Shown: in pieces, positions 29,820-44,490 of the stretch
How the letters are laid out: each line of letters opens with the position of its first letter
Position numbering within the stretch: position 1 is the stretch's first letter
From: Bradyrhizobium jicamae
Lineage (GTDB): Bacteria > Pseudomonadota > Alphaproteobacteria > Rhizobiales > Xanthobacteraceae
Length of the DNA: 64,000 bases
NCBI RefSeq assembly: GCF_001440395.1
Contig: NZ_LLXZ01000215.1
Location: 62,001-126,000, forward strand
Reading direction: 5' to 3'
Notes under the pieces: model-generated
What the model was told of the DNA's origin: nothing
The model's input: only the letters and a program-made list of their open reading frames with translations
Database searches by the model: none
Program-made: the position numbers and the translations under genes

Positions 29820-30095
29820 TCAGGCGCGCTCATGCTTGCGCAAGTCGCGGAGATGATCGAAATGGCTGGCTTGCAGATCGGCGCCGGTCGCAGCGATGTC
29901 GGGCAGGGACGCCTCGCTGAGAATCTCGGCGGTGATGTCCTCGACCGAGCAATCGGCGATTTCATGAACGAAGCTGATATTCCTGTACTCACCCGAAGCG
30001 ACCCGGGAAATGACCTCGCGCCTGGTGATTTCCGGATCGACAATGGCCTCGCGGCCGCGTCGGCCGTAGTCGATCATCACGACGAAATACTGCAT
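29820..30095 (-). CDS. Small protein of unknown function under the S24-repressor-type operator
   Basis: 91 residues, soluble, acidic in the second half. It begins MQYFVVMIDYGRRGREAI and has the segment RREVISRVASGEYRNISFV. I recognise no domain; such proteins recur beside phage-like regulators in Bradyrhizobium. It has a good promoter (TTGACA, 17 bases, AATACT; 30166 to 30138 on the minus strand) with a palindromic operator in the spacer, so it is probably repressed by the S24 protein encoded next to it on the same strand. Confidence 0.6.
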   Translation of the reverse strand: MQYFVVMIDYGRRGREAIVDPEITRREVISRVASGEYRNISFVHEIADCSVEDITAEILSEASLPDIAATGADLQASHFDHLRDLRKHERA

Positions 30096-30137
30096 GCTGG
30101 CAATCTGACCTCAATCCGCCCCCTGAAATCGACGGGT

Positions 30138-30166
30138 AGTATTTCTGAAAATCAGAAGTTTGTCAA
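30138..30166 (-). promoter_or_regulatory. Promoter of the 91-aa gene
   Basis: On the minus strand TTGACA (30166-30161), a 17-base spacer, and AATACT (30143-30138). The -35 box is a perfect consensus. The spacer is filled by the operator at 30141-30159. The 5' untranslated leader to the ATG at 30095 would be about 35 bases. Confidence 0.6.
30141..30159. promoter_or_regulatory. Operator-like palindrome, copy 1
   Basis: ATTTCTGA-AAA-TCAGAAGT: two 8-base half-sites matching at 7 of 8 positions with a 3-base centre. The same 19-base design recurs at 30935-30953, 30968-30986 and 44189-44207, which supports one shared DNA-binding protein, most likely the adjacent S24 repressor. Confidence 0.65.
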
Positions 30167-30171
30167 GGCGA

Positions 30172-30190
30172 AATTCGGAAAAGCAGAAAT
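30172..30190. promoter_or_regulatory. Operator-like palindrome, weak copy
   Basis: AATTCGGA-AAA-GCAGAAAT, a degenerate copy of the 19-base site, centred 31 bases (about three helical turns) from copy 1, upstream of the -35 box. It suits cooperative binding of two dimers. Confidence 0.45.
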
Positions 30191-30262
30191 TGTGCCGCCG
30201 CCGACGAGGCGATGGCAGCTCCGCCAATATCGCTTTGATCCGGAAATCGCGAGCCGTGGTGG

Positions 30263-30901
30263 CTATTTCTCCGACGTACGGCCACCCGTCGTCCTTGCCG
30301 CCTTGCGTGCCCGGGCGGCTGCCTTGTTACGCAATCGCTCGATCTGCCCCCGGGGCAGCGTGACGCAGATCTCGCCGATCCACTCAAGCTTGACGCCGGT
30401 GATCGGCTTGGCATTGAAACTCGTGAGGTTGACCGAGGTCGGGGATTTTCCGCGCTCGATCGTCTTCAGATAGCGCTCACCCGTCTTCAGGCGAACGGCG
30501 GCTTCCTCGCCGTAAAAGCTCGACAGCGGGTGGCGCTGCTCGCGATAGACCACGATAATATCGCCATTCTCGTACTTCGGCAGCATGGAATCGCCTGATA
30601 CCTCGAAGGCGATGGTTTCTTCGGCGATCGGGAAGGGTAGCTTTACCTCGCCGAGGCCTTCCGGCGGCACCTGTTCGTGTTCCGGTTCGATCGAGGCGCC
30701 GGCGCCGACCCGGCCCATGATCGGCACCGAGTTCAGTTCGAGATACTCCATGATAGGGGCGATTTCAGAGGCCTTGATCAGGCGTATCCCGGACAGGATC
30801 TCGGAAACCGCGCCAGGACGAACGCCCATCGCGGCCGCCAGCCCGCCCTTGGTCTTGCCCGGCTTTTCCAGGCCCCGCTCGATCAATCTGACGTCCAGCA
30901 T
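30263..30901 (-). CDS. Phage-type repressor: HTH plus S24 (LexA-like) peptidase domain
   Basis: 212 residues from the ATG at 30901 (an in-frame ATG 30 bases upstream, at 30931, is disfavoured because it lies inside the -10 and operator region). N-terminal HTH: KGGLAAAMGVRPGAVSEILSG (about residues 18-38). A linker with a cleavage-type site (IMGRVGAGA) follows. The peptidase S24 domain has catalytic Ser in GDSMLP and Lys in AAVRLKTGERYLK. Such proteins bind operators as dimers and cleave themselves when RecA filaments form, linking their genes to DNA damage. Three operator-like sites lie between it and the divergent GcrA-like gene, and its own promoter overlaps two of them, indicating autoregulation. 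Confidence 0.92.
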   Translation of the reverse strand: MLDVRLIERGLEKPGKTKGGLAAAMGVRPGAVSEILSGIRLIKASEIAPIMEYLELNSVPIMGRVGAGASIEPEHEQVPPEGLGEVKLPFPIAEETIAFEVSGDSMLPKYENGDIIVVYREQRHPLSSFYGEEAAVRLKTGERYLKTIERGKSPTSVNLTSFNAKPITGVKLEWIGEICVTLPRGQIERLRNKAAARARKAARTTGGRTSEK

Positions 30902-30909
30902 GGTCGAAT

Positions 30910-30928
30910 CCTTCCGAATTTCAGGAAT
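30910..30928. promoter_or_regulatory. Operator-like palindrome nearest the repressor gene
   Basis: CCTTCCGA-ATT-TCAGGAAT, a degenerate copy of the 19-base palindrome, centred 25 bases from the next site. It lies over the -10 region and start of the repressor transcript, so occupancy would shut the repressor promoter. Confidence 0.45.
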
Positions 30929-30956
30929 CATAGCAGTTCCGATTATCCGAAATCAA
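30927..30956 (-). promoter_or_regulatory. Promoter of the repressor gene
   Basis: On the minus strand TTGATT (30956-30951), an 18-base spacer and TATGAT (30932-30927). The spacer is occupied by the operator at 30935-30953 and the -10 abuts the one at 30910-30928, the arrangement of an autoregulated phage repressor promoter. Confidence 0.55.
30935..30953. promoter_or_regulatory. Operator-like palindrome, middle copy
   Basis: AGTTCCGA-TTA-TCCGAAAT. Half-sites agree at 6 of 8 positions. It sits in the spacer of the repressor promoter and 33 bases (centre to centre) from the copy at 30968-30986. Confidence 0.6.
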
Positions 30957-30958
30957 GC

Positions 30959-30988
30959 TTGACTTGCATTTCGGAATATCAGAAATTA
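30959..30988 (+). promoter_or_regulatory. Promoter of the GcrA-like gene
   Basis: TTGACT (30959-30964) is a good -35 box; the best -10 candidates (AAATTA or ATTACT, 30983-30990) are weak and slightly far. The operator at 30968-30986 fills the spacer, as at the 91-aa gene promoter, so repression by steric exclusion is likely. Confidence 0.45.
30968..30986. promoter_or_regulatory. Operator-like palindrome, copy nearest the GcrA-like gene
   Basis: ATTTCGGA-ATA-TCAGAAAT, half-sites matching at 7 of 8. It is 17 of 19 bases identical or better when aligned with the distant copy at 44189-44207. Confidence 0.7.
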
Positions 30989-31032
30989 CTCGCCGGCGTC
31001 GGGCGGCGTTGACAAGAGCAAGGATAACAAAA

Positions 31033-31734
31033 ATGGAACTGTCGAACTGGGCGCCCGAGCACTCGGACGCGCTGCGGGAATTTATTGCCAAAGGCTTGAG
31101 CTTTTCGGAGGCCGCGCAGGCGATCAACTCACGATTCAATACGTCCTATTCTCGCAATGCTGCGCTCGGGCGCGCCAGGCGGCTTGGGCTGGGGGCGGAT
31201 GATCGTCGGCAGCCGTCGATGCCCGCCCAACCGGCAGATCTGCGCGACATCGCAGTGCCTCGTGCCAGCGATTCCAGGACGTCTACGCTCATCTGGCCGG
31301 TGCCGCTGTTCAAGGAGGTCAAGCCGCTCAAGCTGCGCTGCGTAGAGATCGAGCCGCGGCACCTCTCAGTGATCGAGCTGGAGAGGGAGGACTGCCGCTA
31401 CCCGTACGGCGGCGACGAAGAGAACGAGGCCATCACTTTCTGCGGTCATCCGCGCCGCCCGGGTTCGGCTTACTGCACGCCGCATTTTCATTTGAGCAGG
31501 AATCCGGTGGTGCCAGCCGAACGCGCGGTGAGTTCCGTCGCGCTGCGGGTGGTTCGAGGCGGCATGAAGAATGCTGATGTCACTGATGTAGCCGACCGGC
31601 TGAAGCGGCTGCCGCGCCGACATCGGATCGCACATCTGCGCGCGCTGATCGGGCTTGAGCCGGAGGGCGGCGACATCAGGCACAAACTGTCCGAATTACT
31701 AAGCGACGAGATATCGGACGCGCCAATCGAATAG
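31033..31734 (+). CDS. GcrA-like regulator (accessory, phage-type)
   Basis: 233 residues from the ATG at 31033 (AAGGA upstream). Residues 1-55 match the GcrA N-terminal HTH layout: W-x-x-E in NWAPEHSDALREFIAKGLSF and a GRARRLGLG helix end. The C-terminal half carries the Cys/His region typical of GcrA (CRYPYGG, then TFCGHPRRPGSAYC and H). True cell-cycle GcrA is about 170 residues; this one is longer, with a 70-residue tail. GcrA proteins bind sigma70 and methylated GANTC sites to activate transcription. Divergent from the S24 repressor and controlled by its operators, this copy is probably an activator of a phage-like or SOS-type gene set (inference). Confidence 0.75.
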   Translation: MELSNWAPEHSDALREFIAKGLSFSEAAQAINSRFNTSYSRNAALGRARRLGLGADDRRQPSMPAQPADLRDIAVPRASDSRTSTLIWPVPLFKEVKPLKLRCVEIEPRHLSVIELEREDCRYPYGGDEENEAITFCGHPRRPGSAYCTPHFHLSRNPVVPAERAVSSVALRVVRGGMKNADVTDVADRLKRLPRRHRIAHLRALIGLEPEGGDIRHKLSELLSDEISDAPIE

Positions 31735-31781
31735 ACCTTCCGGTCAAGCCCGAATTCCACTGCTTTCAAGGAGTCCATCAG

Positions 31782-32357
31782 ATGCCGAGAGCCAAACGCC
31801 GAAAGCCGTACGATCCCGCCAAGGTGCATGACCGGAGGCCCCGCGACTTGCTACGCAACGTGGAAGTTGCGACCGTCGAGGTCGATAATCCCCTGGCGCT
31901 AGAGCCGGGCGAGAAGATCGTTGCCCTGCGTTCGATCCGCAACGATCCACTCGCTCGCCTGCATTCCCATCGTCAGATCGATGAGGCCCAGTTTCAGGCG
32001 GGCAGGGCGTTCCAGAGCGATTGGGAGAAGGCCGAGCGCGGACCACGCGCGGTCGATCCTAGCAGGGACTATGTGGATGGAGGGCAGCGGCGCGAACCGA
32101 TCACCGAGGGCCAGCGCAAGGCGGTACTGCGGTTGAACCGGGCCGAGCGCGAACTTGGCGCGGATGGTTCGGCGTTGGTGCACGACGTTCTGGTCCACGG
32201 ATTGACCATGGAGCAGGTCGGCCAGCGGAGGGGTCTGCATACCGGGCGCTGGAAAGACTACTTTTCAAAGCGATTCCGCGAGTGCCTCGACCGGCTGGCG
32301 CTGTTGTACGGGTTCGCGACGGAGCATCCCGTTCCCGTCAGAAGCCTCCAGCGCTGA
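31782..32357 (+). CDS. DUF6456-like protein
   Basis: 191 residues, very basic N-terminus (PRAKRRKPYDPAK). The middle has NDPLARLHSHRQIDEAQFQAG and a tail with LVHGLTMEQVGQRRGL and FRECLDRLALLYG. This is the shape of the alphaproteobacterial DUF6456 domain, which carries a C-terminal helix-turn-helix-like region resembling a sigma-4 or replication-type HTH. It follows the GcrA-like gene by 47 bases and is probably in its operon. The 3' end overlaps the end of the convergent BamA gene by 20 bases. Function unknown; a DNA-binding partner of the GcrA-like protein is a guess. Confidence 0.65.
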   Translation: MPRAKRRKPYDPAKVHDRRPRDLLRNVEVATVEVDNPLALEPGEKIVALRSIRNDPLARLHSHRQIDEAQFQAGRAFQSDWEKAERGPRAVDPSRDYVDGGQRREPITEGQRKAVLRLNRAERELGADGSALVHDVLVHGLTMEQVGQRRGLHTGRWKDYFSKRFRECLDRLALLYGFATEHPVPVRSLQR

Positions 32358-34692: not shown

Positions 34693-34928
34693 GTCCCGCG
34701 GGGCTCCTGTTGATCGCCTGAGATCGAATTGCCCGCGCGGGGCAAAAAAATGTCTGGGATAAGGTGAGTTGCAGGCGAGTTTTTCGTGAGGTGCCACAAT
34801 TTCGACGTCTTTTGTTAAGGTCGATTTTCTCAGAATTGTCGCAATGCGCGCTTCATGCTTCCTCATCGAGAGCGCTTGGGCGCATGTGCCGGAACCTTGG
34901 CATGCGTCTGCGTTCGCAGGAGCATCAC

Positions 34929-35981
34929 ATGCGATATGCCGCCTTCATTGCCGCCGCGCTCATGCTGATTCAACCAGCACATGCAGAGAAGACGCCGGAG
35001 GTCGATCCGCGCGCCTCGCTCGGGGTCGTCCAGCAATGGATCTATAACTACCGGGCCAAGCCGGACTACGCCCATGTCCCGGCAGCTGTGCGTGTGCTGT
35101 TTCACTCGCAGACGTTCAAGGAGCCGGAGAATGCCGGCATCTATCTCGGCTTTATCGCCGGTGCGATCAGCTCCAATCCGGCCAAGGCCGAGCAGCTCAT
35201 TGCCAGTTTCTTCCCCGTGCGGCCGGACGATGAATGGGTGATCGTCCGCGCCATCGCCTATTCGGGGCTGCCCGACTGGAGAAACGTGCTGCGTCGGGTC
35301 GCGCCACGAATGCCGGGCCGGCGGGTCATGATCGACAGCTACCTGGCCGGCAAGCTGCCGACCTTGACCGATATCCCGCTGGAAGAAGTAAAGCCCGGCA
35401 TGATGGAGAAGATGCGCGGAGCCTTCACGAAGAATCCCTTCGCCAAGGACGAGCGCAAGCTGAACACGACGCTGACGTTCGCGGGCAACCAGGATTTGCT
35501 GGATACGCTCTGGGGCTACTATTTCGCGACCGGCTCGCATGCACCGATCCAGCGCATCGTGCAGATGCTGCCATGGAGCAAGAGCCGCGACACGATCGAC
35601 AAGCTGACGGTCGGAAGCATGGCGCGCTATACGCTGGCAAGCTACGCCATCCGCGATGCCAGTTTGCGCGAATATCTCCGCAGCGAGCTTGCAAGGCAAT
35701 CGGCGGCGGTCAAGGCGCCGCTTGCCGAAGTCGTCGAAGCGGCGGACACGGTGCAGATCGCAGCGCTGCGCAAGGATGCGCTGGCCGCCGTTGAGGAACT
35801 CAAGACCAAGGGCTCTGATAGCCGCCGCGACCTCAGCTTCTGGGGCCAGGTCGGCGTCGGCGCGGTCGCGCTCGGCTGTGTCTCCGCGGCTGCGCTGGGG
35901 CAGGTGGCGGTCGGCATTCCCTGCGTAATTGGCGGCTCGGCCTCACAGGGTCTGCTGTCCTTCTGGGAAAAGCAGCAGTAA
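34929..35981 (+). CDS. Secreted protein of unknown function
   Basis: 350 residues from the ATG at 34929 (AGGAG eight bases upstream). Signal peptide 1-18 (ends PAHA-E). The mature part is helical with conserved-looking segments FIAGAISSNPAKAEQLI and IAYSGLPDWR. A hydrophobic Gly/Ala-rich stretch lies near the C-terminus (VGVGAVALGCVSAAALGQVA), possibly a membrane anchor. No family is recognised; similar proteins occur in Bradyrhizobium. It is divergent from the BamA-like gene across about 240 bases, so an envelope role is plausible. Confidence 0.75.
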   Translation: MRYAAFIAAALMLIQPAHAEKTPEVDPRASLGVVQQWIYNYRAKPDYAHVPAAVRVLFHSQTFKEPENAGIYLGFIAGAISSNPAKAEQLIASFFPVRPDDEWVIVRAIAYSGLPDWRNVLRRVAPRMPGRRVMIDSYLAGKLPTLTDIPLEEVKPGMMEKMRGAFTKNPFAKDERKLNTTLTFAGNQDLLDTLWGYYFATGSHAPIQRIVQMLPWSKSRDTIDKLTVGSMARYTLASYAIRDASLREYLRSELARQSAAVKAPLAEVVEAADTVQIAALRKDALAAVEELKTKGSDSRRDLSFWGQVGVGAVALGCVSAAALGQVAVGIPCVIGGSASQGLLSFWEKQQ

Positions 35982-44188: not shown

Positions 44189-44207
44189 TTTCGGAAAATC
44201 AGAAATT
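44189..44207. promoter_or_regulatory. Distant operator-like palindrome of the S24 repressor regulon
   Basis: ATTTCGGA-AAA-TCAGAAAT. It differs from the site at 30968-30986 only in the 3-base centre (AAA for ATA), although it lies 13 kb away. It ends five bases upstream of a -35 box, so a bound dimer would block the promoter of the 71-aa membrane protein. Confidence 0.7.
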
Positions 44208-44211
44208 AAGT

Positions 44212-44240
44212 TGACTTTTCTCCCAAATCAGTTGTCTATG
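44212..44240 (+). promoter_or_regulatory. Promoter of the 71-aa membrane protein gene
   Basis: TTGACT (44212-44217), 17 bases, TCTATG (44235-44240). The leader to the ATG at 44275 would be about 28 bases and contains CAGGAGG. The -10 is only a partial match. Confidence 0.5.
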
Positions 44241-44274
44241 GAGCACCTGGTTCTTCTTTCCAGGAGGCGCTGCA

Positions 44275-44490
44275 ATGTTCGACCAATCTTCTGAGCTTGT
44301 CGAGATATCGAAGCTCAATGGCGAGTTCAGAAAAAATTACGGCAAGCTGATCGGCGCGTTCCTCTATCTACGCTCTGTTAGTGCCGCGCGCGGCCGTTCC
44401 TGGTTTTGGGCCGGCCTAGTTTACCTCGCTTGTTCGGGCGCGTTGGCTTGGCTGGCGCGGCATAATTGGCCGCTATCATCCTCGCCTTGA
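44275..44490 (+). CDS. 71-aa one-helix membrane protein under repressor-type operator
   Basis: 71 residues: a polar, charged first half (SSELVEISKLNGEFRKNYGKL), then a basic turn RSVSAARGRS and a hydrophobic segment WFWAGLVYLACSGALAWLA. A strong CAGGAGG precedes the ATG by eight bases. No family is recognised. The near-identical copy of the operator found around the S24 repressor puts it in the same regulon. If that repressor is cleaved in the SOS response, this would be a DNA-damage-induced membrane protein (inference). Confidence 0.65.
   Translation: MFDQSSELVEISKLNGEFRKNYGKLIGAFLYLRSVSAARGRSWFWAGLVYLACSGALAWLARHNWPLSSSP

Follow-up and report, generated by a model that had tools for sequence, protein, structure and literature searches.

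The window analysed here, a stretch of 64,000 nucleotides from Bradyrhizobium jicamae (contig NZ_LLXZ01000215.1, positions 62,001 to 126,000), contains a module of four genes at positions 29820-32357. The source genome (G000) is a draft of 8,733,502 bases in 235 contigs. Two of the genes are read leftward, sm91, which encodes a protein of 91 amino acids, and a repressor gene of the S24 type, and two are read rightward, gcrA, which encodes a protein of the GcrA family, and a DUF6456 gene (Table 1). Judged from the sequence, the layout is lambda-like, with a leftward gene, a repressor, a rightward operon and operators on both sides. A preliminary description had proposed a lambda-type switch in which a repressor and a divergent GcrA-like gene, followed by a DUF6456-like gene, were separated by three operators. 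Layout and gene assignments were borne out by Pfam and by the palindromes described below, and all three operators do lie between the repressor and gcrA, but two more at the sm91 promoter had been missed. For comparison, 40 loci of the genus were fetched, chosen to span the range of identity, and a named collection of 80 loci was kept out of 175 DUF6456 relatives; these 80 are mostly from Bradyrhizobium, with a few metagenome bins under other names (Reyranella, Alphaproteobacteria).

Genes and operators of the module

The repressor matched Peptidase_S24 (E 2.7e-13) and HTH_3 (E 2.7e-5) of Pfam and the repressor family phrog_4 (E 1e-15). Since several orthologs begin at Met11, a start near 30901 is likelier than that of the full frame. 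Ser115, Lys156, Ala77 and Gly78 were invariant in 15 of 15 aligned repressors and in an alignment of 41 rows. No LexA alignment was obtained, and by LexA/CI chemistry we take Ser115 and Lys156 to be the presumed catalytic pair and Ala77-Gly78 to be the cleavage bond; with this equivalence, the signature of a self-cleaving S24 protein is present. Because these residues are kept, DNA damage is a plausible and indeed the likeliest inducer of the switch.

The GcrA-family protein matched PF07750 with an E value of 1.7e-31 and 110 bits (cut-off, 26.9), and its profile matched both domains of the solved GcrA chain 7ye1 (profile 5-168, E 3.9e-14) and also 5yix and 5yiu. According to the NCBIfam name and PMC9836097, GcrA recruits RNA polymerase. 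Since the module protein scored 43.1 bits against a cut-off of 280 bits for NF050816, the NCBIfam equivalog of the cell-cycle protein, it is by this score a paralog and not the cell-cycle GcrA. Three more GcrA-family genes are present in G000, on contigs C191, C183 and C171 (L001, L002 and L004), with 203, 152 and 39 bits. In the window, a small gene is fused to gcrA and forms the C-terminal extension of the protein; in several relatives, this part is a separate gene that overlaps the gcrA stop (ATGA). Of the 40 loci, a simple motif showed 12 with a separate and 5 with a fused small gene; in the named collection the numbers were 7 and 4, and in the rest of both sets the gene was not recognised. 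However, tblastn detected it in some of the loci missed by the motif, such as L041.

The DUF6456 protein, the sole DUF6456 match in G000, matched PF20057 (E 3.7e-8, 34 bits; cut-off, 26.3) and phrog_21451 (E 2.7e-21). Its structure model had a mean predicted local distance difference test score of 66, with blocks from residue 111 to 180 at 84-90, and a C-terminal half like sigma region 4. In a second fold comparison, mostly sigma region 4 domains came out on top, and AlpA (7xya and 7xyb) was among the structural neighbours spanning residues 72-180 (Z 6.5 and 5.8). This likeness agrees with, but does not prove, a role directed at RNA polymerase. DUF6456 is the family of GafZ and GafA, which activate gene transfer agents, virus-like particles that transfer DNA. 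GafA homologs are reported to be annotated DUF6456; in Caulobacter, GafZ is described as an antiterminator acting with GafY, which contacts RpoD, and RogA as a LexA-like repressor of gafYZ (PMC9638019, PMC9765227, PMC9632790, PMC11150451). In two other Alphaproteobacteria with a weak DUF6456 match (L155, 7293-8563; L158, 7908-9239), a gene for a helix-turn-helix-like regulator adjoins the DUF6456 gene, and these are possibly further repressor-GafZ pairs.

The fourth protein, Sm91, had no match in Pfam, PHROG or NCBIfam, and sm91 had none in plasmids. Its structure model was confident for about residues 1-60. Foldseek found nothing for it at an E value of ≤0.001, a second fold comparison gave ERH-like chains with Z up to 5.7, and the best PDB sequence match of the profile was FliG (E 8.5e-4); we claim no function from either.

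The palindrome TTCNGAWWWTCNGAA occurs five times in the module, twice with one mismatch. With up to one mismatch, 47 sites were counted in G000 compared to 4 for the reversed pattern, and the same count in eight genomes gave 26-58 compared to 3-10. Since the sites far outnumber this control, the palindromes of the module are beyond chance. Ahead of gcrA, a -35-like hexamer, TTGACT, was read from the sequence at 30959-30964; the promoter scan reported no full promoter at this site and operator 3. All 40 related loci have the gcrA-proximal operator 3 with no more than one mismatch. With at most two mismatches, the middle operator 2 was found in 40 of 40, the operator at 30143 in 39 (the exception being L066) and that at 30174 in 36 (exceptions L056, L059, L071 and L074), and operator 1 was missing from part of the more distant loci. 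A link to GANTC methylation, which the preliminary description had proposed, found no support: GANTC was not enriched in the module's own two promoter regions in the 40 loci, with 27 sites seen and 25.9 expected in one region and 19 seen and 21.6 expected in the other.

Table 1. Positions of the module features in the window, and loci bearing related features
Feature	Position or loci	Strand	Basis or remark
sm91, 91-amino-acid gene, leftward output of switch	29820..30095	-	Open reading frame; phage homologs (tblastn)
Sigma70-like promoter of sm91, TTGACA - 17 - AATACT, operator in spacer	30138..30166	-	Consensus match only, 10/12
Operator between -35 and -10 of sm91, exact	30143..30157		Match to TTCNGAWWWTCNGAA
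Second operator upstream of sm91, one mismatch	30174..30188		Match to TTCNGAWWWTCNGAA
S24/HTH repressor	30263..30931	-	Pfam Peptidase_S24 and HTH_3; phrog_4
Operator 1, repressor 5' end, one mismatch	30912..30926		Match to TTCNGAWWWTCNGAA
Promoter-like site of repressor, TTGATT - 18 - TATGAT, overlapping operator 2	30927..30956	-	Consensus match only
Operator 2, exact	30937..30951		Match to TTCNGAWWWTCNGAA
Operator 3, exact, just downstream of TTGACT hexamer	30970..30984		Match to TTCNGAWWWTCNGAA
GcrA-family gene (GcrA part, about residues 1-175)	31033..31734	+	PF07750
C-terminal part of gcrA frame, 56 amino acids	31564..31734	+	Homology to separate small gene in relatives
DUF6456 gene (family of GafZ and GafA C terminus)	31782..32357	+	PF20057
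DUF1376-bearing module loci	L055, L065, L218, L237, L238, L240, L249, L252		Between gcrA and DUF6456
Operator-bearing repeat copies in G000	C4:124672, C38:13461, C174:6448, C185:18079, C232:1		L100, L102, L106, L107, L109
Dispersed repeat copies in G113	L110-L115, L118, L119		

Conservation and viral relatives

The module is conserved outside a prophage. All 40 genus loci have its four genes arranged as in the window (in L051, the sm91 match covers just 82%), and at least one flanking gene of the window was kept in 34 of the 40, with none in the stretches fetched for L067, L068 and L072-L075. Neither outcome that the preliminary description had named as refuting, a module confined to full prophages or a protein lacking a GcrA-fold match, was obtained. 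A script found the full gene order in 72 of the 80 loci of the named collection; of the other eight, four had all genes but an overlong sm91 frame, three were cut by contig ends and one, L186, which judging by its length is the contig of L051, lacked a full sm91. All 80 had a GcrA match, and in seven loci a DUF1376-like gene takes up the long gap that separates gcrA from DUF6456. GcrA-like matches were present in 146 of 146 genus genomes, G000 included, a count that takes in other GcrA paralogs, and the best match had an E value of ≤4.6e-26 in 138 of them. An S24 match of some kind was found in 191 of 198 family genomes, but matches above 400 bits were found in 16 of 16 genus members and in no other of the 198; the next best were in two genomes of one neighbouring genus (257 and 159 bits), and the others among the matches listed had at most 114 bits.

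The surroundings in the window are chromosomal. Pfam was run on eleven open reading frames between 23 and 40.5 kb, chosen from the list of frames, and ten matched ordinary chromosomal families (histidine kinase, response regulator, DUF4153, GH3, OpgC, Omp85, Trans_reg_C/TPR, NnrU, GFA and CoA-transferase), the frame at 34764-35978 having no match. No integrase or phage structural family was among the eleven, in agreement with the preliminary description, which had also suggested asking whether the module is conserved without a prophage. The window flanks and the synteny thus do not support an active prophage here; the flanks of the six loci without window genes were not annotated. Rfam at gathering thresholds gave no match in the window or in five repeat-bearing loci. 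The DUF6456 gene and the convergent BamA-like (Omp85) gene share a 20-base overlap at their ends (32338-32357).

By sequence comparison, selection on the module genes is purifying. The ratio of nonsynonymous to synonymous substitution rates (Ka/Ks) was 0.04-0.17 for sm91, 0.04-0.10 for the repressor, 0.13-0.27 for the GcrA part and 0.06-0.12 for DUF6456 in eight comparisons each, and 0.17-0.43 for the small C-terminal part in six, compared to 0.01-0.21 for five flanking genes. From these ranges, evolution is faster in GcrA and its tail than in the flanks, but not in the other three genes.

Each kind of module gene has viral homologs. Two of 50,697 phage records matched sm91 in tblastn, both of them Bradyrhizobium phages. 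One, ppBeUSDA76-2 (L035), holds homologs of both sm91 and DUF6456 and is the only phage record matching DUF6456 (48.5% identical), which is followed there by two small genes and then terminase. Beyond a leftward gene with a weak helix-turn-helix match (E 3.6e-4, below cut-off), which diverges from the next gene, the sm91 homolog comes second, a place that looks like that of sm91 in the module. Homologs of sm91 were also found in five IMG/VR contigs; L174, L176 (with a GcrA fragment of 64 amino acids) and L178 carry sm91 together with GcrA, and DUF6456 is present in L170-L172, with a terminase gene downstream in L170 and L171. A further contig of 4.5 kb listed as viral (L169/L173, IMGVR_UViG_3300020015_000012) carries sm91, the repressor, the operators and gcrA in the chromosomal arrangement and probably derives from a Bradyrhizobium chromosome. 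A DUF1376-like gene separates gcrA from DUF6456 in 8 of 120 module loci. In ppBeUSDA76-2, too, a DUF1376 gene precedes DUF6456, and the eight genes share 60-71% identity with it over 98-126 residues; five of the eight and the phage gene were compared with Pfam, and all six were over the cut-off. The eight loci seem to preserve the same phage region in a less reduced state.

The viral gene order also bears on the place of GcrA. In ppBeUSDA76-2 and L170, the gene for a Bac_DnaA_C protein (E 6.2e-28 and 1.3e-26) overlaps by 4 bases the next gene, which encodes 60 amino acids, and GapR (annotated DUF2312 in ppBeUSDA76-2) and DUF6456 lie further on. The two genes for 60 amino acids matched the profile of the gcrA-linked small gene (L170, E 1.4e-11; ppBeUSDA76-2, E 1.7e-6) and were its sole matches below E 0.1 among 2,123 open reading frames of ten viral loci. 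GafY is reported to resemble the N-terminal part of GafA, which is locally similar to DnaA there (PMC11150451, PMC9638019). Since the DnaA-type gene precedes the 60-amino-acid gene in these viruses and gcrA precedes its homologs in the chromosome, GcrA seems to occupy the position of GafY and not, as had been proposed earlier, that of Cro. The neighbour of a strong DUF6456 gene in a class relative (L165) was also Bac_DnaA_C. No DnaA-type GafY was found beside DUF6456 in the genus loci, 40 of 40 of which have GcrA at that place; GafY elsewhere in the genome was not searched. In L171, GcrA is found with GapR and DUF6456, its match covering the DNA-binding part only, which shows, as far as the sequence goes, that a virus can carry the three together.

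A probable cell-owned switch and its possible targets

The genes, operators, conservation, selection and viral relatives observed here lead us to favour, with somewhat better than even confidence, the view that the module began as the control region of a temperate phage, that the Bradyrhizobium chromosome retained it once the rest of the phage had gone, and that it has been selected as a switch owned by the cell. In such a switch, three transcription units, namely the repressor gene itself, sm91 and the gcrA-DUF6456 operon, would be kept low by S24 repressor bound to their operators. An inducing signal, most likely DNA damage with self-cleavage aided by RecA, would lift the repression. The GcrA-family protein would then serve as the sigma70 cofactor in place of the DnaA-type GafY of phages and gene transfer agents (GTAs), and DUF6456 would act like GafZ, as an antiterminator of the Q kind, letting RNA polymerase transcribe a distant operon; the two proteins would act jointly. 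More tentatively, we suggest that this damage-sensing switch drives a gene-transfer or self-lysis programme so far unrecognised in Bradyrhizobium, with the GcrA paralog replacing GafY. If true, phage late-gene control has taken in a cell-cycle family of sigma70 cofactors, and this in a genus mostly without the tested RcGTA marker. We found no literature joining GTAs, Bradyrhizobium and GafA.

Several results weigh against this view. No phage with the whole four-gene module was found, and the GcrA query had no match in the 50,697 phage records at E ≤ 1e-3, although IMG/VR contigs do hold GcrA-family genes. The repressor matched 12 of these records, none from a Bradyrhizobium phage, though one from a phage of Mesorhizobium; the best match, a Microcystis phage, had 41.5% identity over 82%, and by sequence these matches point to no single source. 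For the repressor, there was no PDB sequence match, alone (E 0.001) or as a profile (0.01). The module DUF6456 is divergent, with 34 bits compared to 113-214 in 18 of the 31 matching class genomes (144 searched), and its closest matches found beyond the genus come from viruses. Foldseek found nothing for its model at E ≤ 0.001, and the AlpA match (7xya) had a root mean square deviation of 7.0 over 105 residues and was tied with sigma region 4 domains. In L163, another class relative with a strong DUF6456, the neighbour had weak helix-turn-helix matches only, so a DnaA-type neighbour was present in one of the two tested. As for particle genes, GTA_TIM (PF13547) was absent from G000 and found in 3 of 60 genus genomes, and in one of the three (G034, 80% complete, 4% contamination) the match was strong; DUF2460 (PF09343) was not found in the draft G000, and an HK97-type capsid was present in just 12 of 41 genomes.

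These last results also bear on what the switch might control. RcGTA was rejected as the target in G000, where both markers are missing; other GTA genes besides the capsid family were not searched. A genus-wide HK97 particle was rejected on the capsid count, other capsid types not being searched. The sole HK97-type capsid gene of G000 (L078, 10994-13841, on contig C12) was not taken as part of a GTA because it lies beside an integrase; possibly this locus is a remnant, or else a satellite element that carries a capsid gene. Scattered operators were also followed. There are 14 exact sites in G000: the module has 3, copies of a dispersed repeat have 5, one is at 44190 of the window, and 5 others were only listed. 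The repeat, of about 500 bases, has a TTGACA-like hexamer beside an exact switch operator at one end, and by reading, this promoter-like site points out of the repeat. Of 27 pieces matching it in G000, five reach the operator end, each with an exact operator. At 44190-44490, an exact operator lies upstream of an open reading frame for 71 amino acids. Operator and gene are also present in G113, at the same neighbour and in a second copy, and were not found in nine other regions searched, five of which include the adjacent acyl-CoA dehydrogenase gene and therefore span the site. Since there are two copies in G113 and none in the regions of nine other relatives, the element is probably mobile, and its operator, shared with G113 alone, was rejected as a conserved target.

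The absence of genus-wide particle genes among those searched leaves room for a switch for self-lysis or stress like AlpR/AlpA, in which the repressor, on cleaving itself, releases an antiterminator, and this in turn opens a lysis or stress operon that has nothing to do with gene transfer. AlpR is reported to autocleave after DNA damage and AlpA to be an antiterminator (PMC7969949, PMC9371919), and AlpA is among the structural neighbours of the DUF6456 model. However, these matches have deviations of 7.0 and 6.5 and are tied with sigma domains, no lysis family was among the eleven neighbours scanned, and the available text of both AlpA papers mentions no GcrA partner. We regard this alternative as possible but doubtful. 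That the module regulates a Bradyrhizobium GTA or another particle that is not of the RcGTA type would fit the GafZ-family protein and the RogA-like repressor. A lead toward such a target is that reads of the B. japonicum S06B phage are described as covering the host genome evenly, which its authors found reminiscent of GTAs (PMC10127595). The capsid count and the integrase beside the only G000 capsid speak against it, and we consider it unlikely. A prophage remnant that gives immunity to related phages or merely decays, finally, would account for the phage-type repressor, the viral homologs, the exact operators in the dispersed repeat and in another mobile-looking element, and the phage gene order partly seen, with DUF1376, in some strains only, but it is improbable: decay misfits Ka/Ks values of 0.04-0.27 for the four genes and their wide presence, immunity alone leaves the selection on gcrA and DUF6456 unexplained, and ppBeUSDA76-2 (37,142 bases) has no TTCNGAWWWTCNGAA operator with fewer than two mismatches (5 two-mismatch matches, 2.4 expected).

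GTAs and self-lysis switches show how bacteria tame phages. A phage-type switch that is near-universal in an agriculturally weighty genus of soil and root-nodule bacteria, with the usual particle markers missing, makes the operon that it switches on a directly testable question, and the apparent swap of a DnaA-type protein for GcrA would link phage late control with a protein family of the cell cycle.

Comparison with known systems

The immunity region of lambda has the order pL - cI - pR. Like it, the module has a leftward gene with two operators, a leftward repressor, three operators and a rightward operon, and sm91 holds the position of the N side. Unlike in lambda, no Cro-like gene was seen in the module, no phage genes were found around it, and the rightward operon consists of GcrA and DUF6456.

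With RogA-GafY/GafZ of the Caulobacter GTA and GafA of Rhodobacter, the module shares a LexA-like (S24) repressor, an activator operon with DUF6456 and a chromosomal location. However, its repressor is adjacent and divergent and keeps the Ser/Lys/Ala-Gly residues, whereas RogA is reported to be without key cleavage residues (PMC9632790). The module also has GcrA in place of GafY and the additional sm91, and G000 is without the two RcGTA markers. Like AlpR/AlpA of Pseudomonas aeruginosa, the module would combine a putatively self-cleaving repressor with an antiterminator-like partner on the host chromosome; it differs in its GcrA partner, in sm91 and in the lack of a lysis family among the scanned neighbours. 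The GcrA-family protein, finally, is like GcrA, the alphaproteobacterial cell-cycle cofactor of sigma70, in that both domains match by profile, and unlike it in its score of 43 bits against the cut-off of 280, G000 having a separate GcrA with 203 bits. Set beside these systems, the module is best read as a domesticated phage switch that is new in the combination of its parts.

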